The position numbers were made by a program, and so were the translations under genes. A stretch of 22,782 bases of DNA, from positions 1-22,782 of the IMG/VR virus record IMGVR_UViG_3300035070_002492. One strand, given 5' to 3'. The first letter of the stretch is position 1. Each line of letters begins with the position of its first letter. Of the stretch, positions 8,563-22,521 are shown in pieces. The notes beneath the pieces are model-generated. The model saw nothing but the letters and a program-made list of their open reading frames with translations, was not told the DNA's origin and searched no databases. Source of the stretch: a virus.

Positions 8563-8612
8563 TGAGTTAATAATACTAGCCTTGATAAATTAAAACTGTG
8601 ACCTATACGATA
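8563..8612 (-). promoter_or_regulatory. Promoter with degenerate CRP site (MazG/LuxR operon)
   Basis: Minus-strand -10 TATTAT (8575-8570), predicted +1 at 8563. Centred at -41.5 is a 16-bp site at 8597-8612 whose promoter-proximal half is a perfect TCACA on the minus strand (TGTGA on +), while the other half is degenerate (2/5). Its position is identical to the perfect sites elsewhere. Confidence 0.55.
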
Positions 8613-8615
8613 GAT

Positions 8616-8642
8616 ATAAAAAAGCCTCAAATTAATGAGGCT
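8616..8642 (-). terminator. Terminator of the lysis operon
   Basis: On the minus strand AGCCTCA (8642-8636) and TGAGGCT (8629-8623) form a 7-bp stem with a 6-nt loop, followed by a run of T. Confidence 0.88.
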
Positions 8643-8788
8643 GCGGAAATTACGAACAAACAAACGACCATAAATTTTGCCGCCAAAGCAAAATGCAAGA
8701 TGCAGCTGTCGGATGGACTGCGACTCGCGTTGTCAGTCACGTTAATCAACGTTACCAAACCCAATGCACTTAGACCTGCGCGGTAGAT
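8627..8788 (-). CDS. Possible membrane peptide with non-standard start (ATC)
   Basis: A perfect TAAGGAGGT ribosome site (8803-8795) follows the o-spanin stop, but no ATG, GTG or TTG at useful spacing opens a long frame. The only long one runs from an ATC seven bases after the ribosome site, through 53 codons, to a TGA inside the terminator stem. The peptide ends in a very hydrophobic segment (FALAAKFMVVCLFVISAASL). It could be a small membrane lysis protein starting at AUC, a gene whose start has mutated, or a chance frame. Confidence 0.35.
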   Translation of the reverse strand: MYRAGLSALGLVTLINVTDNASRSPSDSCILHFALAAKFMVVCLFVISAASLI

Positions 8789-8800
8789 ATGACCACCTCC

Positions 8801-8998
8801 TTATTTACCACAAATTCGTTCAATTAATAGTTTATTCCTAACTAGTTCAATCTTTGTTTGTTCGGTTAGTACGTCATCACTAGATATCGTCACTGGTTGA
8901 ATTACTTCGCATAGGGCGGGTGATTTCGCGCAACTGCTCATTAATAAACACATCGTCACCATTAGCAATATCTTCGTCAACTTGCTGTAACGCCTCAT
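8801..8998 (-). CDS. Rz1-like outer-membrane lipoprotein (o-spanin)
   Basis: 65-aa lipoprotein precursor: basic N-terminus, hydrophobic signal core, then a lipobox-like LMSSC with the lipidated Cys at 23 (Met at -3 is tolerated but not consensus). The mature part resembles short Rz1-type proteins (DDVLTEQTK, then ICGK at the end). O-spanins sit in the outer membrane and, with the i-spanin, fuse the two membranes after the wall is cut. Its 5' part lies inside the i-spanin gene in another frame, the classical spanin overlap, which supports the call. Confidence 0.78.
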   Translation of the reverse strand: MRRYSKLTKILLMVTMCLLMSSCAKSPALCEVIQPVTISSDDVLTEQTKIELVRNKLLIERICGK

Positions 8999-9116
8999 GC
9001 GCTAATACCTTTTCTTCGGCCTCTGAACGCTTACCACGCTCTGATTGCCATGAGTTATACACAAAGTATAGCGCTGCAATTAAAGTCAGAACTACACCTC
9101 CTAGAATCTCAATCAT
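8880..9116 (-). CDS. Rz-like inner-membrane spanin (i-spanin)
   Basis: 78-aa protein: N-terminal membrane anchor (residues 4-20, ILGGVVLTLIAALYFVY) and then a charged coiled-coil-type periplasmic region. The ATG at 9116 was chosen over 9143 because it overlaps the upstream stop (ATGA) and has GGAG eight bases before it. The 3' half overlaps the o-spanin gene by 119 bases in another frame. It is short for an i-spanin, so the call leans on this gene pairing and location. Confidence 0.7.
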   Translation of the reverse strand: MIEILGGVVLTLIAALYFVYNSWQSERGKRSEAEEKVLAHEALQQVDEDIANGDDVFINEQLREITRPMRSNSTSDDI

Positions 9117-9265
9117 TCGACACACTCCACAGCGACACCACATGCAGCATCAACAATTACATCTTGAGTGTCATCACCCAAAACTAGACCATATGACGCG
9201 GCGATTGCAGCAACTAGCGCCACAACTGCCGCAACGATTTTCTTACTTACCGATGGTTTCTTCAC
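9113..9265 (-). CDS. Small one-TM protein, holin candidate
   Basis: 50-aa protein starting at GTG with GGGAGAG four bases upstream. A Lys-rich N-terminus (KKPSVSKK) is followed by one Ala/Val-rich membrane segment (about 10-29) and an acidic C-terminus with two Cys. It lies directly between lysozyme and spanins and overlaps the i-spanin start (ATGA). The lysozyme has no signal or anchor sequence and so needs a holin; this is the best candidate by position, but the 26-aa TM peptide at 9967 and the XhlA-like protein are alternatives. Confidence 0.55.
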   Translation of the reverse strand: MKKPSVSKKIVAAVVALVAAIAASYGLVLGDDTQDVIVDAACGVAVECVE

Positions 9266-9328
9266 AATACTCTCCCAATAAAAAATAACTGATTTTCCTG
9301 AAGTCTTCGCGGAGTAATTAACGCCAGA

Positions 9329-9790
9329 CTAAATAAGACCCTGATAAACACTAGCAATAGATTCACCTCCAATTACTCTAGCGTGTCGATTAGCTCGCTT
9401 AGGCGAATCACTACGCGCCCATTTCGAATCTAAAGCCTCTGTAGCGGCCGTTTCCATATCATTGATAGATAGCGCGCCAATCATCTTCTTAAAGCGTAAC
9501 AGGCCGTGAATACCTAACTGATAGCTCATGCTAATCAACACAGCCTGGACATCTTTTGATTGATCGATAAACCATGCGAACTTGCAGAGTTTACCCTCTT
9601 CTTTACTTGCGTGGTCTTCTAGCCATAACTTAGCAACAGGCTCAGGAATCGAACACTCAAAGTTATCGATGTTCACATTTTTATTGGCTAGCTTAATTCC
9701 ATAGCCAAATGTCGGATAACCTAGCGAATCCTTGTACGGCTTAGCGCGGTATCCTTCCTCAAATGCAATAATATTTACGTAACTCATCAT
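9329..9790 (-). CDS. T4-type lysozyme (GH24 endolysin)
   Basis: 153-aa muramidase. The catalytic triad fits T4 lysozyme spacing: E12 (FEEGYR), D21 (YKDS) and T27 (PTFGYG). Length is close to T4 lysozyme (164 aa). There is no N-terminal membrane or signal-anchor segment, so export should depend on a holin. It cleaves the MurNAc-GlcNAc bond of peptidoglycan. The gene begins with two consecutive ATG codons overlapping the upstream TGA (TGATG), with AAGG just upstream. Confidence 0.9.
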   Translation of the reverse strand: MMSYVNIIAFEEGYRAKPYKDSLGYPTFGYGIKLANKNVNIDNFECSIPEPVAKLWLEDHASKEEGKLCKFAWFIDQSKDVQAVLISMSYQLGIHGLLRFKKMIGALSINDMETAATEALDSKWARSDSPKRANRHARVIGGESIASVYQGLI

Positions 9791-9963
9791 TTAACCTTAA
9801 TTAGCAATCTCTGAGAGCCAAGAAACATCGGCTCAAATGTAATAACAGAGCCCGTATTATACGGAGTTTTCACCATAACAGTTTTATCATCAAACTGCAT
9901 ACCTTCCACAACCTCACCTTTATGGTGGTCGTGGTAGTTTCGCATAAATCGATACTTTCCCAT
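9787..9963 (-). CDS. Small hypothetical protein upstream of lysozyme
   Basis: 58-aa soluble protein (begins MGKYRFMRNYHDHHKGE). GGGAGG lies ten bases before ATG, and an in-frame TGA just upstream fixes the start. The stop overlaps the lysozyme start. It is beta-prone with no membrane segment. It may be a single small domain, but no family is recognised. Confidence 0.55.
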   Translation of the reverse strand: MGKYRFMRNYHDHHKGEVVEGMQFDDKTVMVKTPYNTGSVITFEPMFLGSQRLLIKVK

Positions 9964-9966
9964 AAA

Positions 9967-10047
9967 TCATAAACCTCCCATATATAAACCGTAAATCACC
10001 GTTAAAAACAATCCAACCGATACCGTATTACCTATTAACTTATCCAT
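9967..10047 (-). CDS. 26-aa single-TM peptide
   Basis: ORF with AGGA seven bases before ATG, starting directly after the previous stop and ending four bases before the next gene. It is almost wholly one membrane segment (VGLFLTVIYGLYMGGL). It could be a small holin-type or regulatory membrane peptide; packing between genes is the main evidence that it is real. Confidence 0.5.
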   Translation of the reverse strand: MDKLIGNTVSVGLFLTVIYGLYMGGL

Positions 10048-10048
10048 T

Positions 10049-10381
10049 CTAGTTCCTACCTATAAATTCCATGTTATCGAAAACCTTTGATGGAAGTTTT
10101 CCGTTGTTGTTTTCAAGGCAGTAGATTAACCTATCCACATTCTCTACAGCCTTGGCTAGCAAGCCGTTAAATATCAAACGGCCTCTAACTGATACCTGAT
10201 GGCAAGCCTGCTCCTTTCTGTTCACGAAGCACATGAACGGGATTCCTTTTCCCTTATGCGTCCATAGCGGCTTAACTCTAATTCTATTTACAACACCCAC
10301 TGACAGCCCGGTTAACCTGCAAAGAGCTGTCGTTGATAGGTTAGGATTATCAAGTATCAACCTTTCCAGTTGGCTATCCAT
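10049..10381 (-). CDS. HTH protein in the early part of the lysis operon
   Basis: 110-aa protein, counted from the ATG at 10381; a TTG at 10405 is an alternative in the same frame. Residues about 3-35 form a probable helix-turn-helix (LERLILDNPNLSTTALCRLTG, then SVGVVNRIR), followed by a small basic region. It is likely DNA-binding and could regulate the operon; it does not resemble CI or Cro closely. It overlaps the previous gene's end by eight bases. Confidence 0.6.
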   Translation of the reverse strand: MDSQLERLILDNPNLSTTALCRLTGLSVGVVNRIRVKPLWTHKGKGIPFMCFVNRKEQACHQVSVRGRLIFNGLLAKAVENVDRLIYCLENNNGKLPSKVFDNMEFIGRN

Positions 10382-10604
10382 TTTTAACCCATACGAACTT
10401 ATCAAAATCGCGCTCTAATTGCTCGTAAGTGTAAACAACATCAGTAGCCTCAACCACGAACCCATTAAGCTCATCACTCCACATCATTACAAGCTTGGTT
10501 AGGTTGGTATCAATCGCTATAAACCTCTCGCAGATGTTGCCGTTAACTGGCGGCTTGCTACATACAACAAGCTCTTTGTTATTGCTGAAGTCAAACATGG
10601 ACAT
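10374..10604 (-). CDS. Hypothetical protein
   Basis: 76-aa protein starting at the first of two close ATG codons (10604 or 10598), with GGAG before them; the start overlaps the previous gene's end. Acidic, Trp-containing and soluble (MWSDELNGFVVEATDVVYTY). No family recognised. Confidence 0.55.
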   Translation of the reverse strand: MSMFDFSNNKELVVCSKPPVNGNICERFIAIDTNLTKLVMMWSDELNGFVVEATDVVYTYEQLERDFDKFVWVKNG

Positions 10605-10776
10605 ACTCTCCACTCTTATTGTTATGATTGCAAAACTCACTAGCTACAAAGTGAGTAAAGCCAGAGTTATAACCAGCTTCATAGCTTGGCGTGTAGTCTT
10701 CTTGGTTAGCCAAAGCATTCCACTTTGATTCCAGCTTAGATAGATTCGCTTCTTTAAATTCCACTAACTTGCTCAT
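10591..10776 (-). CDS. Hypothetical protein, first gene of the lysis operon
   Basis: 61-aa protein (MSKLVEFKEANLSKLESKW...). Its ATG has AAGGGA seven bases upstream and lies 35 bases from the -10 of the CRP-type promoter, so it is first in the operon. The N-terminal half is probably helical; the rest contains Tyr/Phe/Asn-rich turns. Function unknown. Confidence 0.65.
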   Translation of the reverse strand: MSKLVEFKEANLSKLESKWNALANQEDYTPSYEAGYNSGFTHFVASEFCNHNNKSGEYVHV

Positions 10777-10798
10777 TGTTTATCCCTTATCGTTTCGT

Positions 10799-10848
10799 TG
10801 AGTTAAATATACAAACAAAACTGATTTGTGTATGTGATGGTCGTCACA
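10799..10848 (-). promoter_or_regulatory. Class II CRP-type promoter of the lysis operon
   Basis: Perfect TGTGA-N6-TCACA at 10833-10848, centred 41.5 bp upstream of predicted +1 (10799). The -10 on the minus strand is TATATT (10811-10806). The hexamer at the -35 position is CATACA, a poor match, as expected for an activator-dependent promoter. Confidence 0.75.
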
Positions 10849-10865
10849 GATTTGATACAGGCAAA

Positions 10866-10892
10866 GAAAAACCCGCTATGGTTGGCGGGTTT
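10866..10892 (-). terminator. Terminator of the recombination operon
   Basis: On the minus strand AACCCGCC... pairs with ...GCGGGTT: AACCCGC (10891-10885) and GCGGGTT (10876-10870) with an 8-nt loop, then TTTTC. It separates the recombination operon from the CRP promoter of the lysis operon. Confidence 0.85.
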
Positions 10893-10898
10893 GGTTGG

Positions 10899-10979
10899 TT
10901 AATTAGATCCAATAAGTAACCCAATTAAAAATGCAAGGCACGCTATAAAGAATACGACAAGCATTATTGCTTTATTCAT
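10899..10979 (-). CDS. 26-aa single-TM peptide after SSB
   Basis: ORF with AGGGG six bases before ATG, ending just before the terminator. MNKAIM is followed by one long membrane segment (LVVFFIACLAFLIGLLIG). It is the last gene of the recombination operon. Role unknown; possibly a membrane-acting early protein such as an exclusion factor, which is a guess. Confidence 0.5.
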   Translation of the reverse strand: MNKAIMLVVFFIACLAFLIGLLIGSN

Positions 10980-10988
10980 GCGCAACCC

Positions 10989-11501
10989 CTAGATGCAGTG
11001 CATTAAGTTGTTATTGTGCATCAGACCAACTGGAGCAAACGGGATGTCGTCATCAAAATCCATAGGAGGCTCATTGTACTGAGGTTGCTGCTGCATTGGC
11101 TGCTGTCGCTGTTGCTGCTGCTGTGGAACTTGCTGGCGTTGCTGGTATTGTTGCTGCTGGGCTTGTTGTTGTTGCTGCGGTTGATTGCCAGTATGCACAA
11201 AGCCTAACTTGGCGTCATGAATCTCAATGGATAGCACCTGACCATTCTGACCATCGAAAGATTTAATCTTCTGAGTTGTGCCGCTTAACTCAATTACAGA
11301 GCCTTCCACAAGTGCCTGTTGATAGAACTGCACCTGAGCCGGAGCCTTGGCAAAGATAACAGCTTCGTAGTTCGTGTATTTATTCTGCTGCGTTTCACGG
11401 TCATAGTATCGAACACCAAGTCGAACGCCAAAGCCGATTGATTCGCCAGCTTGAAATTGGTTAGCTGCTTTGTTCAGTTTGCCTGTGATAGAAATTGCCA
11501 T
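10989..11501 (-). CDS. ssb: Single-stranded DNA-binding protein with poly-Gln linker
   Basis: 170-aa protein. Residues 1-105 are an OB-fold-like region, 107-141 a linker made mostly of Gln, and then an acidic tip MDFDDDIPF (147-155), the motif with which SSB proteins recruit partners. Unusually the tip is not terminal: 15 more residues follow (APVGLMHNNNLMHCI). It follows ERF in the operon, fitting a role in phage replication and annealing-type recombination. The OB domain itself is divergent from E. coli SSB. Confidence 0.8.
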   Translation of the reverse strand: MAISITGKLNKAANQFQAGESIGFGVRLGVRYYDRETQQNKYTNYEAVIFAKAPAQVQFYQQALVEGSVIELSGTTQKIKSFDGQNGQVLSIEIHDAKLGFVHTGNQPQQQQQAQQQQYQQRQQVPQQQQQRQQPMQQQPQYNEPPMDFDDDIPFAPVGLMHNNNLMHCI

Positions 11502-11512
11502 TGTTTTATTCC

Positions 11513-12118
11513 TTATTGTGTTAATTCAGATAGTCGTAAATCGTATGCTTCTTTTGCTTTGTCTTGATGTTGCTTACTTTGTGATAGCTTTTTCCATGCA
11601 TCTCCGAATGCGGTTTTTAGTGATTGCTCATTAGCCGATGATGCTTTGTTTGTAAATTCACCCAGCATCTTATCAAAATCAATAGCTACAGTTTTAACGT
11701 GATTCTGAGCGTTGCTGGTTGCTTGCTGTCTAAACTCATTAGTGTCAGCATCTTTTGAATCGTCAATGTTGTACATACCATTTAGGGCGTACTTACGAGC
11801 GTATGAGCTTGTTGATCCGGTTACCTGTGCGTCATCCATACCTTTCTTGGTTAGAGATTCACGAGCCAGAGCGCTAACGCTGTGCGAGTCAGTTCCATTC
11901 GTTACTGTAACTGTTGCCTTGACGTAGTATCTATCTCCAATCAAAACAATCTCATCACTAACAAACTGAACAAGGCCGTGCTCAGCAAGCAACGGTTTAA
12001 CTGCGCCCATAATATCTTCGCAGCTTCGATAGTTGTATTTCCCGAAAGAATTGAACTGCCCTTTCGGCGCGTTAAGTGTAGCCTGAACCTTAATCAAGCT
12101 TGAGTAGAAATTACTCAT
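11513..12118 (-). CDS. ERF-family single-strand annealing protein
   Basis: 201-aa recombinase. ERF hallmarks are visible: FGKYNYRSCEDIMGAVKPLL (near 26-45), then SYARKYALNGMYNIDDSKDAD (near 105-125). ERF proteins anneal complementary strands and help circularise or recombine phage DNA without RecA. Its start overlaps the exonuclease stop (ATGA), and SSB follows after 11 bases, a usual functional trio. Confidence 0.9.
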   Translation of the reverse strand: MSNFYSSLIKVQATLNAPKGQFNSFGKYNYRSCEDIMGAVKPLLAEHGLVQFVSDEIVLIGDRYYVKATVTVTNGTDSHSVSALARESLTKKGMDDAQVTGSTSSYARKYALNGMYNIDDSKDADTNEFRQQATSNAQNHVKTVAIDFDKMLGEFTNKASSANEQSLKTAFGDAWKKLSQSKQHQDKAKEAYDLRLSELTQ

Positions 12119-12837
12119 AAGAAATTAATCCTCTTGTAAACGTCACGCAATACTGTCACATCTTGAACGCAGTAACTAACGACATCTTCCGGTTTTGTGA
12201 TCCATGTATCATAAACTTTTGAACCATCCATGCCTTCAGTTTTGCTTTGAACGCCAAGCGCTTTAGCAAGGTTATCAAGTGAGATTCGATTACCATAGCC
12301 ACACCAAGCTTCCATCGTACAAAATACATCGCGACCATGGCGAGCGTGCGGGTTAAAGTAAACATTTGGATTCACATTATTGATAACACTGCGATGCCAG
12401 ATAAACGGAATATCAAACTTTGCGTAATGAGCTACAAAGCGCCATTCGTGCATTCCAATCGAGTCACTTAGCCACCGCCAGAACTCGCGAAGCATTTGAG
12501 CCTCACTCATATTCATCTGACTAAACTCTAAAATCTCACCATCCTCGATAGCTGGACAGATAACACAAATCTCACCCTTAGAGCCATCAAACGAAGTCTT
12601 ACGCCAATCTTGCTCACCTTGAATCTTAGCTTGCTCAAATCCAAACTTATCAATCCATTCGCCTTTTAACTCATCGACTGTTTTGTATTTAGCGTCAGAA
12701 CCAAGTCCTAGCGCCTCGATAAGCTTAGGCTTAGTCAGTGCTGACGGAACCTTAATTGAACCTTTAGCTGACTCTACAAACCTATCTAAACCGTTAGGCT
12801 CAGGCAGGGTTTCTATATCAATGTGACAATTTAGCAT
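12115..12837 (-). CDS. DnaQ-like 3'-5' exonuclease (DEDDy)
   Basis: 240-aa nuclease. Exo I motif D7-x-E9 (HIDIETL), Exo II HYAKFD with D142, and Exo III YCVQD (Y222, D226) identify the DEDDy exonuclease fold, which removes 3' nucleotides with two metal ions. The start at 12837 has AGGAG five bases before ATG; the longer frame to 12924 overlaps the upstream gene with no ribosome site. Placed with ERF and SSB, it probably processes ends for annealing. Confidence 0.8.
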   Translation of the reverse strand: MLNCHIDIETLPEPNGLDRFVESAKGSIKVPSALTKPKLIEALGLGSDAKYKTVDELKGEWIDKFGFEQAKIQGEQDWRKTSFDGSKGEICVICPAIEDGEILEFSQMNMSEAQMLREFWRWLSDSIGMHEWRFVAHYAKFDIPFIWHRSVINNVNPNVYFNPHARHGRDVFCTMEAWCGYGNRISLDNLAKALGVQSKTEGMDGSKVYDTWITKPEDVVSYCVQDVTVLRDVYKRINFL

Positions 12838-12997
12838 TTGAACTCCTATTATCATCAATCTGTTGCTGTGCGTATTCTTCCCCAGCAGCGTTACTAACAA
12901 GCGTTGATACAAACTCATGCACACCTACGTTATTGCGCTTGGCTGCATCTTTTATCAACTCATATGTATTTTCGTCTAACTCATTCAAATCAAACAT
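12818..12997 (-). CDS. Small hypothetical, possible ribbon-helix-helix protein
   Basis: 59-aa acidic protein. FDLNELDENTYELIKDAAKR then VGVHEFVSTLVSNAA resembles the strand-helix-helix pattern of Arc/CopG-type proteins, though weakly. GAGG lies eight bases before ATG; a GTG one codon earlier is an alternative. It overlaps the exonuclease start by 20 bases, so the two are coupled. Confidence 0.55.
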   Translation of the reverse strand: MFDLNELDENTYELIKDAAKRNNVGVHEFVSTLVSNAAGEEYAQQQIDDNRSSNAKLSH

Positions 12998-13008
12998 CAC
13001 ACCAACCT

Positions 13009-13275
13009 CTATTTATACTCAACACCAAGCTCTTTAAATAACTTCTTTAGACCTCGACAGTATTTCTTTCTTGTCCTAAATTTGTACTTACCAGTTGACG
13101 GCCAGAAATCAACAATCTTACCTTCATGACTTACAACCAAATGAAAGCCGCCGTTTTTAGATTCAAACTCAACACCTAGCTGCTTTAGCTTTTCCGTTGA
13201 AAACTCAAGATTACTAATCTTCTTCTTTTTCTTTGCTGCGTCCCAATCGCGGAACATTTCACCCATATCGCCCAT
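13009..13275 (-). CDS. Conserved-looking phage hypothetical protein
   Basis: 88-aa basic protein. MGDMGEMFRDWDAAKKKKK, then NLEFSTEKLKQLGVEFESKN and a beta-hairpin-like GGFHLVVSHEGKIVDFWPSTG, ending in a basic helix. Proteins with this order (MFRDWDAxxK...DFWPSTGKY) are familiar in phage early regions but have no known role. GAGG lies eight bases before ATG. First gene of the recombination operon. Confidence 0.65.
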   Translation of the reverse strand: MGDMGEMFRDWDAAKKKKKISNLEFSTEKLKQLGVEFESKNGGFHLVVSHEGKIVDFWPSTGKYKFRTRKKYCRGLKKLFKELGVEYK

Positions 13276-13300
13276 AATAAAAGCCTCATCACTTTCGAAT

Positions 13301-13350
13301 TACACACAGCTTAACCACCATCGATTTAATTTACTGTGAGCTCTATCACA
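13301..13350 (-). promoter_or_regulatory. Possible minus-strand CRP-type promoter of the recombination operon
   Basis: The palindromic site at 13335-13350 also faces the minus strand. At exactly the spacing used elsewhere lies TAAGCT (13313-13308), a weak -10 that keeps the key A2 and T6. Predicted +1 is 13301, 26 bases before the ATG. Confidence 0.35.
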
Positions 13351-13383
13351 AAATAAAAATCACGGTAGGATATAATTTACAAA
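13335..13383 (+). promoter_or_regulatory. Class II CRP-type promoter of the DUF968/RusA operon
   Basis: Perfect TGTGA-N6-TCACA (13335-13350), then a consensus -10 TATAAT (13371-13376); the centre is at about -40.5. The -35 position reads ACAAAA, a poor match. Confidence 0.75.
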
Positions 13384-13397
13384 ACAAAGGAGAAAGC

Positions 13398-13748
13398 ATT
13401 GCAAGTCGAGTGTATAGAAACAAAAAGATAGCTAAACACATTCAGCAAAATATGAACTGCTGCATAACAGGTGCACCATATCCAGACCCGCACCACATTA
13501 TAGGAAATGGATATTCAGCAATGGGAAGTAAAGCGCCAGACTGGACGCAGATGGCACTATCACACCATTTACACCAGGAGTTACATAATTTCGGATGGAA
13601 AGCATTTGAAAATAAATACGGACGCACACAGAAATCAATGGTAGCTGAAACACTAGCTATATTACACGCAGAGAAAATCATTGACCTATATCAATTAGAA
13701 GTTGATGGCTGGGTATTTGAAGAAATGGAGAGGCTATATTGTGAGTGA
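13398..13748 (+). CDS. DUF968-type HNH nuclease-like protein
   Basis: 116 aa from an ATT codon, or 112 aa from GTG at 13410. The core CCITG...PDPHHIIGNGYSAMGSKAPD, then LSHHLHQELHN, matches the DUF968/Ref-type His-rich domain, a metal-dependent HNH-like nuclease fold; E. coli phage Ref cuts DNA with RecA. A strong AAGGAG ribosome site (13387-13392) is five bases from the ATT but 17 from the GTG, so initiation at AUU is likely. It is first gene after a CRP-type promoter and is coupled to the resolvase gene. Confidence 0.72.
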   Translation: MASRVYRNKKIAKHIQQNMNCCITGAPYPDPHHIIGNGYSAMGSKAPDWTQMALSHHLHQELHNFGWKAFENKYGRTQKSMVAETLAILHAEKIIDLYQLEVDGWVFEEMERLYCE

Positions 13749-14145
13749 TTGGATATTTGAACTACCTCTAAAGGTCGTCATGCCACGAAAGACCAAAAAG
13801 GATAAGGTTATACCAATAAACATAAACTGGTATCGTAACGCTCACCACAGGGAGTCTAACGACGTAAAGAAAGCATACAAGGCTTTAATTGCCGACCAAT
13901 TTGAAGGGTTAAGGAAGCCAGAGGGTAAAATACACGTACATTACGACTACTACGCGGCAATGAATAACAGCCCCGACCTGGATAACCTGACAGGATGTGC
14001 AAAGAAGTTCTTTCAGGATGCAATGGTAGAGCTAGGATTTATAGAAGACGATAACATCCACTTTATACCAAGCACATCAGAAAAGTATTGCGGAATAGAT
14101 AGAGATAACCCGCGCTTGGTTGTGAAGATACAAGAGTTAAATTAA
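13741..14145 (+). CDS. RusA-like Holliday junction resolvase
   Basis: 134-aa protein. SPDLDNLTGCAKKFFQDAM, then LGFIEDDN matches the RusA pattern of acidic residues (D-x-D-N and D-D) that bind metal and cut four-way junctions. The GTG start at 13741 overlaps the upstream gene's stop and has GGAGAGG seven bases before it; the longer frame from 13702 lacks such a site. It probably resolves replication and recombination intermediates before packaging. Confidence 0.78.
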   Translation: MSDWIFELPLKVVMPRKTKKDKVIPININWYRNAHHRESNDVKKAYKALIADQFEGLRKPEGKIHVHYDYYAAMNNSPDLDNLTGCAKKFFQDAMVELGFIEDDNIHFIPSTSEKYCGIDRDNPRLVVKIQELN

Positions 14146-14149
14146 ACAT

Positions 14150-14177
14150 AGGCTGCCGATTGGTGGCCTTTTTTATT
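14150..14177 (+). terminator. Terminator after the RusA-like gene
   Basis: AGGC (14150-14153) pairs with GCCT (14166-14169), with an inner CC-GATT-GG step, followed by six T. Confidence 0.7.
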
Positions 14178-14223
14178 GATAGGCAAAACCTTTCAAAATC
14201 AAATTAACGATTGAATCAAACGA

Positions 14224-14260
14224 TTGGAGATAAATTCTAGGTCGCGCAATAATTAGCTCA
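14224..14260 (+). promoter_or_regulatory. Probable promoter for the small-gene cluster
   Basis: -10 AATAAT (14248-14253), possible -35 TTGGAG (14224-14229), 18-bp spacer. The -10 to ATG distance (33) and the leader resemble the promoter at 15318. No CRP site at -41.5. Confidence 0.4.
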
Positions 14261-14280
14261 ACCAAACAAGAGGTCGCAAA

Positions 14281-14415
14281 ATGTTCAAAGCAGAAATAAT
14301 AGATGGAAAATTCACCGTAATTCATTGCGGCGAGGTTATTGAGCAAAACCCTGACTGGAACTTCTTACAAGAAGCATGGGAAAGAGCCGATGAGCTTAAC
14401 GAGGAAACCCAATGA
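14281..14415 (+). CDS. Small hypothetical protein
   Basis: 44-aa acidic protein (MFKAEIIDGKFTVIHCGEV...), with AGAGGT seven bases before ATG. It overlaps the next gene by ATGA. No family recognised. Confidence 0.55.
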   Translation: MFKAEIIDGKFTVIHCGEVIEQNPDWNFLQEAWERADELNEETQ

Positions 14416-14531
14416 TAACAACACAACAAAATAGCCTTGGCTTGTGGTTCATTCACTTAGACGGCGACGTTTTAACTGGCGGATGGATTACAGAGCAAGA
14501 AGCAATTAACGAAATGGAGCAATACAAATGA
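14412..14531 (+). CDS. Small hypothetical protein
   Basis: 39-aa protein (NSLGLWFIHLDGDVLTGGW in the centre) that overlaps both neighbours by ATGA. The three-gene overlap chain is the evidence for translation. Function unknown. Confidence 0.5.
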   Translation: MITTQQNSLGLWFIHLDGDVLTGGWITEQEAINEMEQYK

Positions 14532-14815
14532 ATTGGGTAAATATTGAAAAAGAAACACCAGAGATTGGTGAGTTGGTTTTGGTTTCGTTTAGAACAAATA
14601 TCGGAACGCAGCAAATGACAACGGCAAAATACAACATCATCAATCACTCAGCGCATGGTGATAACTATCATCCACAGTGGAATGTTGAGGTTTCTGGTGG
14701 CCACACACTAAACACAGTTACTCACTGGTGTTCAATCAAGAATCCATTGGTTTGCAAGTGCGGAAAAGTCGAAGGCGCAAGCTACTGTTACGAAGGCGAT
14801 TGTTTGCCGTTTTAG
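14528..14815 (+). CDS. DUF551-like protein with Cys-rich tail
   Basis: 95-aa protein. The first 75 residues fit the DUF551 pattern: W near the start, P-E-I-G then LVLVSF, and closing VTHWCSIKNP. DUF551 proteins are common small phage proteins of unknown role. The last 20 residues carry four Cys (CKCGKVEGASYCYEGDC), which could bind zinc. Confidence 0.6.
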   Translation: MNWVNIEKETPEIGELVLVSFRTNIGTQQMTTAKYNIINHSAHGDNYHPQWNVEVSGGHTLNTVTHWCSIKNPLVCKCGKVEGASYCYEGDCLPF

Positions 14816-14829
14816 ATAGGAGAAAGGTT

Positions 14830-15015
14830 ATGATTTATCTTGATATAGCAACAAGAATGGGATGCGCATACACAGCCTGGGGACCTTGCTTTTGTGATAA
14901 TGAAAAGTGCAAGTCGTGCGTTACTGCTGACAAAATCGAAGAGCTAGGAATGGACTGGGATGAAGAGTTTAACAAAGCTGAGATGAATAACTTCAAAGAC
15001 CCAGACTACATTTAA
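14830..15015 (+). CDS. Small Cys-rich hypothetical protein
   Basis: 61-aa protein with AGGAG eight to nine bases before ATG. Five Cys fall in a short span (GCAYTAWGPCFC, then CKSC), suggesting a metal site. The frame extends upstream to 14728 but that part overlaps the DUF551-like gene without a ribosome site. Function unknown. Confidence 0.6.
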   Translation: MIYLDIATRMGCAYTAWGPCFCDNEKCKSCVTADKIEELGMDWDEEFNKAEMNNFKDPDYI

Positions 15016-15058
15016 CCAAAACCAAGGGGTTGCGCGAGCTTTCCCTTAATGGAGCAAT

Positions 15059-15277: not shown

Positions 15278-15294
15278 AACTCGGTAATGCAAAT

Positions 15295-15330
15295 TTGACA
15301 GCACCTACAGGTAATGCGATAATTGCTTTA
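15295..15330 (+). promoter_or_regulatory. Strong sigma70 promoter for the replication operon
   Basis: Consensus TTGACA (15295-15300), 17 bp, GATAAT (15318-15323) with an extended -10 TG. No CRP site: it should fire without activator. Confidence 0.85.
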
Positions 15331-16649: not shown

Positions 16650-18028
16650 TGAACCTGATAACACCACCGTACTCACAAGAAGCTGAAATGGCGGTTATCT
16701 CAACTCTGATTGAGGACTGCAGCCTAATGAGCAAGATTGAGTTCTTGTCTGCAGATGATTTCTACATGATGCCTCACAGGATGATGTATGAAATGTTTAT
16801 CGAGGAATCAAAGAAAGGCGAGTTCTTCGATATCAACATGCTAGCCGACAAGGTCACTGATGAGATGGGCGGAATTGCTTACTTTGCTGACATCGGTAAG
16901 ACAAAGACCGCCAAGGGTGCGGTTATCTCTTACGCAAGAAAAGTTGTTGATATGGCAATCAGACGCAAATCAATGGCAGCGTATCAACAGGGCATTGAAG
17001 ACCTAGCGAATACCAATACAAACTTTGTTGATGAGATTAGCAAGGTGTCAGGTGAAGTAGACAAGAACGTCTGCAGGCTTAACGCAAGCGATTCTCTGGA
17101 CGTTGAAACATTAATCGATCAATCAGTCGATGAAATGGAAAAGTCACTGCAGGAGGCGCGTACAGGGGTTTCTAGCGGCATTCCTGAAGTTGATGAGCGA
17201 TTAGGTTATCAGCAACTGGCAATTGGTGAGGTTACAATCCTTGGCGCTCCATCTAAAAACGGTAAAACACTATTCGCAAACACCATCGCGGCACGTTGTG
17301 AATTATTAGAAGGTGAGTCAGCTCACATATTTAGCATTGAAATGCCAGCTCTAGGCATGTTTAACGGTATAGTCTCTGCAATCTCTGGTGTACCTGCGAA
17401 CTTCTATGCTCGACAGGCTTATTACAGCCAAACCATGCCGAGTAAGTATGACGAATGGATGGCTAGATGGGGCAAGGCTGCTACAGAGTTGCGCGATAGT
17501 GGAAAGATTACTATCGATGGGCGCAAGGATGTGACAATGCAATACATCTGCAGCGAGATGAGAAAGCAAAGCCAGTTAGAGCAAAACAAAGGTCGTAAGC
17601 TTCGCGTTGTATTTATCGACCACGCACACCGTATTAGTTATGACTGCAGTAAAAAGCCAATGACTTATGCAATGGGTGACGATGTTCGAATGCTAAAGAA
17701 TACTGCAGCGGATTTGGGTGTCGCGGTTGTCTTACTTTGTCAGCTTAATGAAAACAGCAAAGACAGGGACCCGACCTCATACGATATTCTGGATACGTCT
17801 CGTATTCGCCATGAGATGCAAGCATTCATTGGTTTGCGATTATTCAGAGAAGGCGGCGGTACTTACTTCGGCGTTTACGGGCATGATCCGCGATATGCAG
17901 ACCATGAGACAAAGTTTCACCCTGCTTACATGTGGATGGATAACGGTGTTGTCAAATCTCTACCAGAGCATAATAAGCACTGGACACCACAACCAACAGA
18001 AGAAACACAAAGTAATTACAAGCGATAA
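16649..18028 (+). CDS. DnaB-like replicative helicase
   Basis: 459-aa protein. The N-terminal helical domain starts with the typical PYSQEAEMAVISTLI; the RecA-like ATPase domain follows with Walker A GAPSKNGKT (199-207), SIEMP (the DnaB SxEM motif) and Walker B VVFIDHAH with D324, then the LCQLNE motif. It unwinds DNA at the phage fork. Length is near E. coli DnaB (471). It directly follows the DUF1376 protein, a usual initiator/helicase pair. Confidence 0.92.
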   Translation: MNLITPPYSQEAEMAVISTLIEDCSLMSKIEFLSADDFYMMPHRMMYEMFIEESKKGEFFDINMLADKVTDEMGGIAYFADIGKTKTAKGAVISYARKVVDMAIRRKSMAAYQQGIEDLANTNTNFVDEISKVSGEVDKNVCRLNASDSLDVETLIDQSVDEMEKSLQEARTGVSSGIPEVDERLGYQQLAIGEVTILGAPSKNGKTLFANTIAARCELLEGESAHIFSIEMPALGMFNGIVSAISGVPANFYARQAYYSQTMPSKYDEWMARWGKAATELRDSGKITIDGRKDVTMQYICSEMRKQSQLEQNKGRKLRVVFIDHAHRISYDCSKKPMTYAMGDDVRMLKNTAADLGVAVVLLCQLNENSKDRDPTSYDILDTSRIRHEMQAFIGLRLFREGGGTYFGVYGHDPRYADHETKFHPAYMWMDNGVVKSLPEHNKHWTPQPTEETQSNYKR

Positions 18029-18052
18029 ACTTTTAACTAGATAGGTAATGAG

Positions 18053-18229
18053 ATGAAAAATAAAAACGCTAAACGAATGATGGCTACTGTTTTTAGTGGT
18101 GAGTGGGAAATGTTTCAGCAAAATATGTATCGACTGGTAATTCTTGAGGGTTACTTTGGGGCATGGCCAGTTCACTGCGCATTACATAAACAGGTATCAC
18201 TAACCGCTGACCAGTTGAGAGGTAAGTAA
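18053..18229 (+). CDS. Small hypothetical protein
   Basis: 58-aa protein (MKNKNAKRMMATVFSGEWE...), aromatic-rich centre (YFGAWPVHC). The ATG follows a GGTAATGAG stretch; an earlier out-of-frame ATG is dead after two codons. No family recognised; it is followed after one base by the next gene. Confidence 0.5.
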   Translation: MKNKNAKRMMATVFSGEWEMFQQNMYRLVILEGYFGAWPVHCALHKQVSLTADQLRGK

Positions 18230-18230
18230 T

Positions 18231-18413
18231 ATGAAAATCAAGAAAGGCTCAGTTATTCGCGAATACAAGTACGGCCACTGCATTCAATCAACAGTAATCA
18301 CAGACCCAATTGAGAACGAGCGCGGCCAGTTAGAATTTAAAGCGGAGACAAGCATCGGTTCGATTATCGAGTACATGAAAAACGAATCAAGCCTAGATAT
18401 TATTAAGGAGTAG
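18231..18413 (+). CDS. Small hypothetical protein
   Basis: 60-aa protein with beta-rich N-terminal half (KGSVIREYKYGHCIQSTVIT) and a helical end. AGAGGT precedes the ATG. It could be a small SH3-like barrel, but this is only an impression. Confidence 0.55.
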   Translation: MKIKKGSVIREYKYGHCIQSTVITDPIENERGQLEFKAETSIGSIIEYMKNESSLDIIKE

Positions 18414-18415
18414 AA

Positions 18416-18592
18416 ATGAACAACGTATTTAGAATGCCAAAGCTACACAGAAACTCCCCGGCAATGGGCAAGATACTCAAGGATATCGAGAAGCGCGGGT
18501 GCTTTTATTATAACAATCAGCGCGTAAAGCTAGACGAAGCTAACACGAAGGTAGACGGCGTTTATGTTTATTTGGCATATACGCCAGTTTAA
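18416..18592 (+). CDS. Small hypothetical protein
   Basis: 58-aa basic protein (MNNVFRMPKLHRNSPAMGKI...). AAGGAG five bases before ATG and two-base spacing from the previous gene. A helix followed by a beta hairpin seems likely. Function unknown. Confidence 0.55.
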   Translation: MNNVFRMPKLHRNSPAMGKILKDIEKRGCFYYNNQRVKLDEANTKVDGVYVYLAYTPV

Positions 18593-18603
18593 GGAATTTT
18601 AAA

Positions 18604-19323
18604 ATGAAAAAAGCAATATTCTTATTTGATTACACAGGAATTATGGCAAAACCATGGGCTGATGCCGGTTACTTATGTTACTGCTTTGATGGGCAACATC
18701 CGTTAGGTGTATCGAAAAGCAACCACGAAAATATACTTAACGTTGGTATGTGGTTTAGTACTGATATCACCGGTGATATTTCAGGTGGTGATGTAGATAA
18801 GATTTTAGCCATTACCGGTAGTGATGTTGAAATCGTTTTCGGATTCCCAGAATGCACTCAATTAGCAGTTAGCGGCGCGGCTCACTTCCCAGCTAAGTTT
18901 GATGCAAACCCGTTTTTTCAAGATGAAGCCATGGTTCTTGTTTACCTGGTCCGAGACCTAGGAGAGAGGGTCGGGTGTAAATGGGCCCTAGAAAATCCAG
19001 TTAGTGTCATTAGCTCAAAATGGCGCAAGCCGGACTTTTACTTTGACCCGTGGCAATACGGCGGTTATCTACCTGAAGATGATGTACACCCGATTTATCC
19101 AGAATACATAAAATCGCGTGATGCTTATCCAAAGAAAACCGGAATCTGGTGTGGTAATGGATTTGTTAGGCCAGAAATAAAACCGGTATATGTCGAGAAA
19201 GGCTATTCGAACCAACACAAGAAGTTAGGTGGCAAGTCACTAAAGACTAAAAACATCCGTAGCGCAACACCAAGAGGATTTGCAATTGCGACATACGAAT
19301 ATAACAGTGAATCCGATAGATGA
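18604..19323 (+). CDS. C5-methyltransferase-like DNA-modifying protein
   Basis: 239-aa protein of the phage Dcm-like group. FGFPECTQLAVSG (79-91) corresponds to motif IV, with C84 as likely nucleophile in PEC instead of the usual PPC. ENPVSVISSKWRKPD (130-144) fits motif VI (ENP), and PWQYG near 149 and a PRGFA near the end complete the pattern. The N-terminal SAM-binding glycine loop is weak (FDYTGIMAKPW). It may methylate cytosine or modify it otherwise. AAGGAAT precedes ATG. Confidence 0.68.
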   Translation: MKKAIFLFDYTGIMAKPWADAGYLCYCFDGQHPLGVSKSNHENILNVGMWFSTDITGDISGGDVDKILAITGSDVEIVFGFPECTQLAVSGAAHFPAKFDANPFFQDEAMVLVYLVRDLGERVGCKWALENPVSVISSKWRKPDFYFDPWQYGGYLPEDDVHPIYPEYIKSRDAYPKKTGIWCGNGFVRPEIKPVYVEKGYSNQHKKLGGKSLKTKNIRSATPRGFAIATYEYNSESDR

Positions 19324-19351
19324 GCTTAAACAGCGTTACGGAGGTGAATTA

Positions 19352-19780
19352 ATGGCTTTTGAGAAGCTAATAACGAGTGTTGATGACCTGCACGAGATAA
19401 GTGGTTACGCACATGACCACTTTGAGCAAGGAGGTGGAGCGCTAAAGGTTAGGATTACGAATGGTGGTAAACGGTCATTGTCGCAAAATGCTCTCATGTG
19501 GAAATGGCTAACTGAGATTGCACAGCAGACAAAAGAGAAGGGCTATGGTGATTATGACTCAGAAGACATGCACGAGTATTTTAAGGATAGGTTCTGCGTA
19601 GACAAATTACTAACAATTGGTAAAACAACAATCCAGGTTAAGAGCACCAAGAAGATGGATAAGGGCGAGATGACGTTTTACATGAATCAGATTCATCAAT
19701 GGGCTGTTAATGCCGGGTTTAGACTATCAATGCCAGAAGAAAGCGAATACATGAAAGCAATGCAATCTCAAAACATGTGA
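19352..19780 (+). CDS. NinB-like recombination protein
   Basis: 142-aa protein matching NinB (lambda Orf) family: RSLSQNALMWKWLTEIAQQ (about 46-64) followed by the EYFKDRFC region. NinB/Orf binds DNA and SSB and can replace RecFOR in recombination. The ATG at 19352 has GGAGGTGA five bases before it, so the longer frame from 19280 is rejected. It begins 28 bases after the methyltransferase-like gene. Confidence 0.85.
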   Translation: MAFEKLITSVDDLHEISGYAHDHFEQGGGALKVRITNGGKRSLSQNALMWKWLTEIAQQTKEKGYGDYDSEDMHEYFKDRFCVDKLLTIGKTTIQVKSTKKMDKGEMTFYMNQIHQWAVNAGFRLSMPEESEYMKAMQSQNM

Positions 19781-19825
19781 CACCTATCACGGAAGTTGGT
19801 GGATATTGAATTTATAATGTATCCA
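19776..19825 (+). promoter_or_regulatory. Class II CRP-type promoter of the triple-HTH gene
   Basis: TGTGA-N6-TCACG (19776-19791, one mismatch) centred at -41.5 from predicted +1 (19825). Consensus -10 TATAAT at 19813-19818. The site overlaps the NinB stop codon. Confidence 0.7.
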
Positions 19826-19846
19826 TCAACTGAAGAGGTTAATCAA

Positions 19847-20317
19847 ATGGCCAGACCATATAAATTAGCGAATTATTCGCAAGAAGAAGTAAGAGCAAAA
19901 GTAAAAGAACTGGGAACCATCGCAAAGGCGGCTAAGTTCTACGAATGCGCAGAGAAGACAGTAAGCAATAAGATTGGATTCTTTGTGTATCGAAGCGTTG
20001 ACCCAAAGCACCATAAAGAGCTTAAAGAGTTACTGAAGATTCACACTAAGAGTCGAGTTGGCGAGCTGATGGGATATTCACAGAGTCAGATGGAATGGTT
20101 CACCAAGAAGCATAAAATTAAATGCTCATCGAAAGGTAAGCCAAAGATTGATTCAAACCTTACCCATTACGAAATGAACAACATGGATGAGGTGATAAAG
20201 GATTACGCGACCATTTTAGATTGCGCGGATGAATTAGAAGTAAGCGCAAAGACAATTCATCGTCATTTAAAGATTTGCAGAGAGCGTAAACGTGAAGCTG
20301 CTCACGGTTCGAGTTAA
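19847..20317 (+). CDS. Protein with three predicted helix-turn-helix units
   Basis: 156-aa basic protein. Three HTH-like segments are seen: about 22-44 (GTIAKAAKFYECAEKTVSNKI), 71-95 (KSRVGELMGYSQSQMEWFTK) and 123-145 (ATILDCADELEVSAKTIHRHL). The first and third have the typical A-A-x(3-4)-x-K-T-V/I spacing of Mor/resolvase-type HTHs. The ATG at 19847 has GAAGAGG seven to ten bases upstream; the frame start at 19796 lies in the promoter. Possibly a phage regulator or adaptor; targets unknown. Confidence 0.65.
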   Translation: MARPYKLANYSQEEVRAKVKELGTIAKAAKFYECAEKTVSNKIGFFVYRSVDPKHHKELKELLKIHTKSRVGELMGYSQSQMEWFTKKHKIKCSSKGKPKIDSNLTHYEMNNMDEVIKDYATILDCADELEVSAKTIHRHLKICRERKREAAHGSS

Positions 20318-20405
20318 TCAAAATCAGTAGGGTAGCTTAGGTAGTTGCGTTGTCGATTAATCTGGTAACGCGCAGGTAGTTTAAATTGAATGTTTAGGTG
20401 TTGTT

Positions 20406-20561
20406 ATGACAATTGAAGAGTACGAACTTAAGTTTAATGATGAGTTAAGAGGAAATCAGCCTGCATATAAGAGTTGGCCGATTTGGGTTAAAGAGTGCTA
20501 CCAATCATTTATGGATAGCGTAGCAGAGCAAGAGTTAGATATGGAGTTGAATCAGTTATGA
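20406..20561 (+). CDS. Small hypothetical protein
   Basis: 51-aa acidic protein (MTIEEYELKFNDELRGNQP...), Trp/Tyr-rich centre. It overlaps the next gene by ATGA. The 88-bp stretch before it holds no clear terminator; no confident promoter is visible. Confidence 0.55.
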   Translation: MTIEEYELKFNDELRGNQPAYKSWPIWVKECYQSFMDSVAEQELDMELNQL

Positions 20562-20869
20562 GTAAAGCGCACAAGCATAGTAAGTTGATTTCAGAGTGGG
20601 CGAGTAATCCAAGTGGTTATGTGATTTGGATGGCATATGGAGTTGGTGTTGATTTTACATGGGTAGAGGCTCCGACGCCTTGCGGTTGGAATGAAAGTGT
20701 TCAATACAAACTTGTACCTTTAGTTAAAAAAGAAAAGCGATGGATTGCGTATAGCACAAACCAAAAAAGACTTGGTTGTTTGACTTTTAACTCTGAAATT
20801 GAAGCTAGAAATCACTACATTCACGAAGTCGATGGGCCTCAGTTTATAGAAATTGAGGTCGAAGCATGA
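20558..20869 (+). CDS. Phage hypothetical protein (small duplicated-strand type)
   Basis: 103-aa protein. HSKLISEWASNPSGYVIWMAY, then WVEAPTPCGWNESVQYKLVP resembles a common small phage family (x-I-x-x-W-A ... W ... P ... Y-x-Y-K/R-x-x-P), here with a C-terminal extension. Function unknown. Coupled both ways by ATGA overlaps. Confidence 0.6.
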   Translation: MSKAHKHSKLISEWASNPSGYVIWMAYGVGVDFTWVEAPTPCGWNESVQYKLVPLVKKEKRWIAYSTNQKRLGCLTFNSEIEARNHYIHEVDGPQFIEIEVEA

Positions 20870-21105
20870 CAATAGAAAAGGTACTCCTTCAAACCCAACT
20901 ATGCGCATTAGACTTTAAAGCTAACCTTGAAGCTTTAGATGTGCCAGCAAGGTTGATTGAGAATGCGAGTGGGAATCCCTCCAGGTACGTTATCCTGGAT
21001 AATACAAACCTAACCACAGAGCAAAGGGTGAGGTTAACAAGGCTGCATGATTTGATGTGGTGTCGCATCGATGTGGCTGATATCAAGTTGATAGAAGAGT
21101 TGTGA
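20866..21105 (+). CDS. Small hypothetical protein
   Basis: 79-aa, helical protein (MTIEKVLLQTQLCALDFKAN...). Starts by ATGA overlap and its TGA lies within the CRP-type site of the next promoter, so the two units are packed tightly. No family recognised. Confidence 0.6.
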   Translation: MTIEKVLLQTQLCALDFKANLEALDVPARLIENASGNPSRYVILDNTNLTTEQRVRLTRLHDLMWCRIDVADIKLIEEL

Positions 21106-21150
21106 CAACAATCACAGACTTAAAACAATGCGCAGTCTATTATGGCTGCG
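21101..21150 (+). promoter_or_regulatory. Class II CRP-type promoter
   Basis: Perfect TGTGA-N6-TCACA (21101-21116) centred at -41.5 from predicted +1 (21150), -10 TATTAT (21138-21143). It overlaps the upstream stop codon. Confidence 0.75.
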
Positions 21151-21171
21151 TACTTAATTGGAGAGATAGAT

Positions 21172-21843
21172 ATGATTACTTGTAAAGAAGATTTGTACGG
21201 GACGCATGTTTTGCTTTCTGATGGTGAGGCGCTTGAGATTTACGTTAATTTAATTAATGAGCTTGAAATAGCAGAAATAAAAATTAGAGCAGGTGATTGC
21301 GAAGATGCTATCGAGGTGCACAAGGCAGAGTGGGAGCCGTCTGGTTGGGGTGCTTCATTTGCAACGCTTGTAGGTTTGGATTTTGGATCAAAGCGACTAA
21401 CCCTAGAAGACTTTAAACCACAAGCCAAAGGGGTTGAGTGTGCTAATGGTTTACATCCTATCGGTGTTGAGTGTGAGCTTAAAGACCTAAAACCAAAACC
21501 AACCAAGTTTGTAAAAGTCGAAGAGTCTATCTTTGATTTAAAGGAAGAGTTCGAGAGTGGTGAGTTGTATTTTGATGCTGGCGAATTGTCAGACGGTTAC
21601 GCACTATCAATTAGTGGGTACGTAAAGATTAATAGCAAGGAAACATTGTGCGATTGCTACTCTGATGGAAATGTTTACCGACAGGTTGAGCTTGATTGGC
21701 GCGATGAGGTTAAAAGTAAATACTCATTGACTGACTTTAGAAACCTTGATGATGAAGGATGTATAAATCTAGGCGATTGGACTCCAGAAGGGTTTATTAA
21801 ACTTTGTCATTTTGTAGCAGAACTAACAGGTAAACTAGAGTAA
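21172..21843 (+). CDS. Hypothetical protein under CRP-type promoter
   Basis: 223-aa acidic protein, no membrane or signal segment. The ATG at 21172 has GGAGAG six bases before it and lies 34 bases from the -10; the in-frame ATG at 21142 is inside the -10 hexamer and is rejected. The N-terminal 80 residues look helical, then a Cys-Glu-rich segment (VECANGLHPIGVECELKDL) and a mixed C-terminus. No family recognised. Confidence 0.65.
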   Translation: MITCKEDLYGTHVLLSDGEALEIYVNLINELEIAEIKIRAGDCEDAIEVHKAEWEPSGWGASFATLVGLDFGSKRLTLEDFKPQAKGVECANGLHPIGVECELKDLKPKPTKFVKVEESIFDLKEEFESGELYFDAGELSDGYALSISGYVKINSKETLCDCYSDGNVYRQVELDWRDEVKSKYSLTDFRNLDDEGCINLGDWTPEGFIKLCHFVAELTGKLE

Positions 21844-21852
21844 GGGGCGGGT

Positions 21853-22020
21853 ATGTGCAACCCAAGAAAACTAACAAGGCGTGAGATGTTTGGGTTTTCT
21901 GCATGGAAGCGTGGAATGGATAAGGAAGACATTAAAGAGTTTGGCGAGGTTGTCAAAAGGCCGCTAAGCTCATATCACGACCTATACAGGATTTACCTAG
22001 ACTCAAACAAGCCCCGTTAA
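21853..22020 (+). CDS. Small basic hypothetical protein
   Basis: 55-aa protein (MCNPRKLTRREMFGFSAWKRG...). AGGGGCGGG precedes ATG. The stop lies inside the terminator loop. Helical and basic; function unknown. Confidence 0.55.
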   Translation: MCNPRKLTRREMFGFSAWKRGMDKEDIKEFGEVVKRPLSSYHDLYRIYLDSNKPR

Positions 22021-22034
22021 TTCGGGGTTTTTTA
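22012..22034 (+). terminator. Terminator
   Basis: CCCCG (22012-22016) and CGGGG (22023-22027), followed by six T. Nearly identical to the terminator at 22601. Confidence 0.88.
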
Positions 22035-22088
22035 TTGGTATCGAGTCTAAAGGTAAGGAATGACCGAATAGTTTATCTGTCTACACCC

Positions 22089-22104
22089 TGAGATAATTAA
22101 CCCT
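22089..22104 (+). promoter_or_regulatory. Extended -10 promoter
   Basis: TGA-GATAAT (22089-22097) with no clear -35 and no CRP site. -10 to ATG distance is 35, as at the other promoters. Confidence 0.5.
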
Positions 22105-22126
22105 CAAAAACAATGAGAGCGCCAAC

Positions 22127-22435
22127 ATGAATGAAATGAAAGCAACAGATGCAGCAAGAGAGCTTTACCAAATTACAGAGGAGTTAGAGCGTGGTGACTG
22201 GGCGATGATTTACCCAGAAGGCGCAATGCTTAAGGTTAAGAGAAAGATTGAGCTCATCAATATTATATCTAATCAGATGAGAGATAATGAGCCAACAAGG
22301 GATTCATTCCCAGAGTATGGTGACGCGCAAGGTGACTTGATGGAGTTTGTTTATAAGCGATTTGACGGTATGCCAATTGCCGCAATCATAGGATTCTTAG
22401 AGATGGCCAAGTTATCAATCATTGACGAGGCATGA
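22127..22435 (+). CDS. Hypothetical protein in single-gene unit
   Basis: 102-aa acidic, helical protein (ATDAARELYQITEELERGD...) with GAGAG eight bases before ATG. It has its own promoter and terminator, so it stands as a one-gene unit. No family recognised. Confidence 0.65.
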   Translation: MNEMKATDAARELYQITEELERGDWAMIYPEGAMLKVKRKIELINIISNQMRDNEPTRDSFPEYGDAQGDLMEFVYKRFDGMPIAAIIGFLEMAKLSIIDEA

Positions 22436-22444
22436 TAACAAAAG

Positions 22445-22464
22445 CCCACTTAACCGTGGGTTTT
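22445..22464 (+). terminator. Terminator
   Basis: CCCAC (22445-22449) and GTGGG (22456-22460), followed by TTTTCTC. Confidence 0.75.
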
Positions 22465-22471
22465 CTCATTA

Positions 22472-22521
22472 TGTGATATTAATCACAGACACGAATAGAA
22501 ATTAGGACTATTATTAAACCC
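22472..22521 (+). promoter_or_regulatory. Class II CRP-type promoter of a short transcript
   Basis: Perfect TGTGA-N6-TCACA (22472-22487) centred at -41.5 from +1 (22521), -10 TATTAT (22509-22514). Confidence 0.75.

Follow-up and report, generated by a model that had tools for sequence, protein, structure and literature searches.

Host CRP as a predicted class II activator of most non-structural and accessory operons in an integrase-free lineage of Vibrio phages

Introduction

Tailed phages that use host RNA polymerase usually open infection with strong, activator-independent -35/-10 promoters and then turn to factors of their own. Here, we ask what purpose is served by the repeated palindrome TGTGA-N6-TCACA in IMGVR_UViG_3300035070_002492, a 22,782-bp record with matches to tailed phages of Vibrio (its whole length is called the window below), where a first-pass annotation had placed class II promoters of the kind activated by the host protein CRP with cyclic AMP (cAMP) on several operons. 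Our answer, judged from the sequence, is that host cAMP-CRP is very probably the direct activator of most non-structural and accessory operons, acting through class II promoters.

V. cholerae CRP recognises the same palindromic motif, and activation by CRP is known from sites centred at -41.5 or -61.5 (PMC6050953). Among approximately 90 V. cholerae host sites read in its chromatin immunoprecipitation table, only one, engA, is an exact match, which suggests that the phage sites lie nearer to consensus than these host sites.

The window shares DNA with 355 phage records, 351 of them named as Vibrio phages; MG592515 (Vibrio phage 1.144.O) comes closest, with 36% of the window covered at 90% identity. 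Twelve Vibrio phage genomes of 40-46 kb, comprising siphophages and P22-like podophages, were compared with the window and are called the relatives; together they make up the 13 sequences referred to below.

Results

On recount, the exact palindromes given earlier at 10833, 13335, 21101 and 22472 and the one-mismatch copy at 19776 were all present, and the half-site at 8597 is real, with the minus strand as its reading direction (TATCGTATAGGTCACA). The four exact copies compare with 0.033 expected from half-site counts, bearing out the rarity that the first-pass annotation had put at about 0.02. When all 1024 5-bp half-sites were combined with spacers of 0-20 bp (about 21,500 combinations), TGTGA-N6-TCACA ranked joint first in the window, and at a spacer of 6 every other half-site had at most one copy. 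The sole tie, TTGAT-N17-ATCAA, has four copies in the window and falls outside the top three in all 12 relatives. TGTGA-N6-TCACA itself is first or joint first in 12 of 12 relatives, with 3-10 copies each vs 0.04-0.09 expected. Whole-record scans found 7 sites in a record taken to be phiHSIC, which is similar to the relatives, 9 in 1.278.O and 8 in ICP1 (a full-length match to HQ641347), and zero exact palindromes in seven comparison phages (T1, ICP2, KVP40, ST160, HK629, vB_VaM_H2 and 199E37-1), a set that includes lambda-like and P22-like phages and two other Vibrio phages besides T1, KVP40 and ICP2. Among the IMG/VR loci listed, two or more such palindromes occurred in 22 of 119 found by the 21-bp spacing described below, compared with 0 of 77 found at 16 bp and 2 of 103 at 26 bp (controls). 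Several candidates were set aside: a one-mismatch site at 17312, which lies within the helicase gene, lacks a -10 hexamer and was taken as probable chance; loci L016, L025, L060 and L087 and loci L038 and L041 of the viral scan, where a single palindrome was read from both strands, probably by chance; and the AT-rich loci L055 and L125, which are possibly host genes, L055 having no match in the phage collection.

TCACA and the -10 hexamer are separated by 21 bp at 8597(-), 10833(-), 19776(+), 21101(+) and 22472(+) and 20 bp at 13335(+), the same geometry as the centre-to-hexamer distances of 29.5 bp (five sites) and 28.5 bp (one) reported at first pass. The 21-bp spacing centres a site at -41.5 from the predicted +1, and the rightward 13335 site at -40.5. 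When 141 non-redundant site readings were collected, allowing one mismatch and with no prior demand for a -10 element, near-consensus -10 hexamers numbered 16 at 21 bp and 3 at 20 bp; elsewhere within 0-59 bp the mean was 0.5 and the maximum 2. Alignment of 37 dissimilar promoters with the 21-bp spacing gave the consensus TGTGA-N6-TCAC(A/G), G at -33 (84%), the -10 hexamer, and CA at -1/+1 (C 59%, A 59%), with none of these single bases having played a part in selection, and the layout is common to 43 dissimilar promoter types. TCACA with the base after it fills positions -38 to -33 (consensus C-A/G-G from -35 to -33), leaving no independent -35 element, and pairs of sigma-70 hexamers show no enrichment in the region (27 vs 37.9 in shuffles). 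The absence of a -35 hexamer argues that an activator is needed.

A ribosome-binding site and start codon lie at most 220 nt downstream in 89 of the 96 promoters of the 13 sequences, and 13-27 nt after the predicted +1 in 80 of them, typically at about 22 nt. Terminators often precede the sites, as at 8623-8642, 10869-10892 and 22441-22470, and the T-rich positions -59 to -56 could represent either an UP element or the preceding terminator's T-run.

Conservation follows the half-sites. In the 13335 family, 0 of 10 half-site columns vary vs 6 of 6 in the spacer; in the 10833 family the counts are 1 of 10 and 4 of 6 (all 13 sequences being orthologous in both), and in the 19776 family they are again 1 of 10 and 4 of 6. 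Over the 60 bp upstream of orthologous sites, 31-60 columns are variable. The first-pass annotation had named conservation in related phages as a check on its reading, and the half-sites are kept, the spacer not, in the 12 relatives.

The same design recurs where the genes differ. It is found at non-orthologous accessory genes, and accessory genes that stand on the opposite strand among the structural genes of relatives have their own CRP-type promoter. In four genomes the 21101 promoter and its leader lie near the right end, and in seven they follow the terminase; around this module the upstream DNA is unrelated (20-30% identical) and the site-to-10 stretch 81-98% identical, with mosaic, mostly related genes downstream. 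Design and cassettes are shared by phiHSIC, the Nahant/oyster siphophages and the P22-like podophages (for example MG592515, HQ632860, MG592423 and MG592647), isolated Vibrio phages with annotated genomes in which such promoters are nevertheless unannotated in the records examined.

The phages appear to bring no CRP homologue of their own. The cNMP-binding domain (PF00027) was found in 0 of 16 phage records, with control genomes positive, and the Crp helix-turn-helix (PF13545) gave only sub-threshold fragments, in 4 phage records; a phage-encoded CRP/FNR regulator was thus not found in these records. No member of the integrase family PF00589 was found in 15 phage records, in keeping with the earlier description of the phage as virulent-looking, and a helicase search for prophage relatives in bacterial genomes, a weak test, returned none.

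Enrichment, geometry, lack of a -35 element, conservation, uniformly short leaders and the want of such sites in unrelated phages thus support class II CRP-type promoters on several phage operons, and the scope is wider than first described, with about 7 promoters per genome including those of accessory cassettes. The strong sigma-70-like promoter at 15295 is not of the CRP type, which indicates that CRP is not needed by every operon. The predicted promoters of the window and associated features are listed in Table 1.

Table 1. Predicted promoters and associated features of the window, with coordinates given on its full length.
Feature	Position	Strand	Details
Degenerate CRP-type site TATCGTATAGGTCACA	8597..8612	-	downstream half intact; -10 TATTAT 8570-8575; predicted +1 8563
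CRP-type site TGTGACGACCATCACA	10833..10848	-	-10 TATATT 10806-10811; predicted +1 10799
CRP-type site TGTGAGCTCTATCACA	13335..13350	+	-10 TATAAT 13371-13376, 20 bp off; predicted +1 13383
Same 13335 palindrome, leftward TGTGATAGAGCTCACA	13308..13350	-	21 bp; TAAGCT 13308-13313; predicted +1 13301
Sigma-70-like promoter TTGACA-17-GATAAT	15295..15323	+	upstream of Rha and replication genes
CRP-type site TGTGACACCTATCACG	19776..19791	+	-10 TATAAT 19813-19818; predicted +1 19825; ATG 19847, 22-nt leader
Inverted repeat AGTTGGTGGATA-N14-TATCCATCAACT	19794..19831		centred on -10 of the 19776 promoter; candidate operator
156-aa protein	19847..20317	+	two helix-turn-helix-like stretches by eye; no Pfam match
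CRP-type site TGTGACAACAATCACA	21101..21116	+	-10 TATTAT 21138-21143; predicted +1 21150; ATG 21172, 22-nt leader
CRP-type site TGTGATATTAATCACA	22472..22487	+	-10 TATTAT 22509-22514; predicted +1 22521

Tail-type genes occupy the left third of the window. The remainder holds two leftward operons, for lysis and for recombination (exonuclease, ERF, OB-fold), one rightward operon (DUF968, RusA, Rha, DUF1376, DnaB-type helicase, NinB) and, as far as the terminase, small accessory genes. The 8597 promoter is predicted to serve 7891-8397 and the GerE/LuxR-type helix-turn-helix gene at 7465-7788, and the terminator at 8623-8642 (minus) precedes it; its orthologues in 5 relatives, identified by linker similarity, have better palindromes. 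The product of 7465-7788 (-) is small and without a sensor domain; several siphophage relatives, unlike the P22-like ones, have it annotated as a response regulator C-terminal domain. The 10833 site, preceded by the terminator at 10869-10892 (minus), heads a leftward operon of small genes and lysozyme from 10776 down to about 8801.

The 13335 site has a rightward promoter (DUF968/HNH, RusA, then further genes downstream), and a conserved leftward reading had been overlooked at first pass. A -10-like hexamer lies exactly 21 bp off to the left in 13 of 13 sequences, TAGACT in 10 of 12 relatives and TAAGCT in the other two and the window, with a conserved leader close to gtgtgtaattcgaaa after it. 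The recombination operon runs leftward from 13275, downstream of the predicted start at 13301, with an 88-aa open reading frame, exonuclease, ERF and an OB-fold/SSB-like gene. With 3-4 of 6 bases matching, this hexamer is weak; one CRP dimer on the palindrome would likely serve both divergent operons.

At 19776, the inverted repeat on the -10 is 11-12 bp in relatives, was equalled in 0 of 60 shuffles, and has covarying arms (GGATA/TATCC, GGCTAA/TTAGCT); inverted repeats around the -10 were sought as a general feature, and only this family stood clearly above shuffles. Because the repeat sits on the -10 and a protein with helix-turn-helix-like stretches is encoded directly downstream, the arrangement suggests that the 156-aa protein is a candidate autorepressor, with CRP turning the promoter on and its product shutting it off. 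The 22472 promoter follows a terminator-like hairpin at 22441-22470 and leads into a leader, ATG AAA TGA, and a hairpin with T-run at about 22600-22625, beyond which lies the probable start of the terminase small subunit (22697). The stretch 22521-22625 looks like an accessory cassette minus its gene, or a small RNA.

Discussion

From these features and established CRP biology we infer CRP binding, activation and carbon gating in the following form. Host CRP-cAMP would bind the near-consensus palindromes at -41.5 (-40.5 at 13335 rightward), in place of the missing -35 element, and recruit host RNA polymerase through class II contacts, with transcription starting at the conserved CA and translation about 22 nt on. 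Operons form insulated units of terminator, CRP-type promoter, short leader and genes, which are gained, lost and moved as cassettes within an integrase-free Vibrio phage lineage. Phage expression, early and accessory, would then track host cAMP, high on poor carbon and low on sugars of the phosphotransferase system.

Several observations weigh against this reading or narrow it. In relatives, about one exact site in three has no good -10 at a distance of 20-22 bp; many of these show TAGTAT (4 of 6), and others fall at the ends of genes, where no promoter is visible. Related phages enter the figures for leaders and alignment, which are hence not fully independent. Single matches in the viral collection are barely in excess (at least 119 vs 78 and 104 at off-spacing controls); as proof of enrichment they were dropped for their high background, and multi-site loci were counted instead. 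In L010 a copy of the 21101-type promoter has drifted down to a half-site, and the sites of the 8597 family are degenerate; weak sites are thus tolerated at some promoters. Few sites accompany the virion genes past the terminase, so late expression may not depend on CRP. The Vibrio host of the window contig is itself presumed from its relatives. Separately, exact palindromes TGTGATATAATTCACA and TGTGATTAATCTCACA without a good class II -10 occur at or near tail-region gene ends in relatives (L006 26377; L007 19714; L004 18547 and 22631; L008 19076), where they may have another role or belong to a different promoter class.

Could a protein other than CRP read the sites? They might be operators of a phage repressor with CRP-like specificity, dispersed like the stoperators of temperate phages, and they are indeed scattered, overlap promoters, and keep company with Rha/antirepressor-like genes. 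The promoters, however, lack a -35 hexamer and so call for an activator, and a repressor would not need its site kept on one face at one distance from the -10; moreover, the sequence equals the CRP consensus, and a non-exhaustive reading of the annotations showed no regulator common to all relatives, the GerE/response-regulator gene being unannotated in the P22-like L005, L010 and L011. Given the missing -35, the fixed spacing and the lack of an integrase in the 15 records, we regard this repressor as very unlikely. Chance, or descent from one repeated element with no regulatory role, draws on the fact that some promoter modules were clearly copied between positions, yet 43 dissimilar promoter types share the layout, and the half-sites are frozen while the spacer varies, a pattern that already contradicts it and leaves it scarcely any probability.

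If CRP is the protein, its effect could still differ from the one that we propose. It might mainly repress or tune, leaving phage genes off on poor carbon: in coliphage T1, pir, dam and recE respond to cAMP-CRP, which represses them and inhibits T1 promoters in vitro (PMC6737242). T1, the nearest phage precedent that we found, resembles our case in having phage genes that answer directly to host CRP, and differs in being repressed and in having no exact TGTGA-N6-TCACA, hence a different arrangement; a site at -41.5 with no -35 beside it has the layout of class II activation, and we consider mainly repression or tuning here highly improbable indeed. CRP could also be a constitutive, abundant activator, with cAMP never low enough in real Vibrio hosts to gate infection; promoters would then depend on CRP but form no physiological switch, a view that parts from the proposed reading only at that reading's last step. 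Near-consensus sites should fill at low CRP-cAMP, and the host sites, in the part of the published table seen, are far weaker; gating, however, is compatible with the sequence, and greater sensitivity would be expected of the degenerate 8597 and 19776 sites than of exact copies. We find constitutive use quite possible, while leaning somewhat away from it.

Direct activation of phage operons by host CRP has partial counterparts elsewhere. E. coli promoters of the galP1 type are alike in palindrome, -41.5 centre, -10 hexamer and want of a -35; the present ones differ in being viral and near-consensus, in numbering about 7 per genome and in forming the standard promoter of a phage lineage, with CRP contacts that are predicted. 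The unrelated and well-studied V. cholerae phage ICP1 has 8 exact palindromes and so a possible CRP connection. In the ICP1 record (L019, HQ641347), 7 of the 8 lie at 5140-10059, between small genes of the cluster ORF10-ORF25 (ORF, open reading frame); even with one-mismatch copies counted, just two or three sites in that stretch are class II-spaced, and CRP, if active there, may act from other positions. In phage GIL01, host LexA controls phage promoters (PMC4551915); GIL01 and other borrowers likewise place a host factor on phage promoters, as a single repressor for the lysogeny switch and not as an activator of most operons. The relevant work that we found on CRP with phages concerned only T1 and CTXphi, and the open literature covered contained no report tying CRP sites to phage genomes in such a manner; subscription papers are largely outside this coverage, and absence is not proof.

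More broadly, a large integrase-free Vibrio phage lineage may use host cAMP-CRP as its general activator, with infection carbon-gated and the CRP promoter serving as a common part for cassette exchange between otherwise unrelated phages, a proposal that we make tentatively and with nearly balanced judgement. The signature is simple and strong enough to locate promoters and transcription units in Vibrio phage genomes that lack annotation, and to point to their host guild. If the proposal is true, a host metabolic activator is written into most operons and infection could hinge directly on carbon source, giving a testable tie between marine nutrient conditions and phage output. Receptor-independent resistance would then be predicted in crp or cya mutants, with a bearing on the use of phages against Vibrio in aquaculture.

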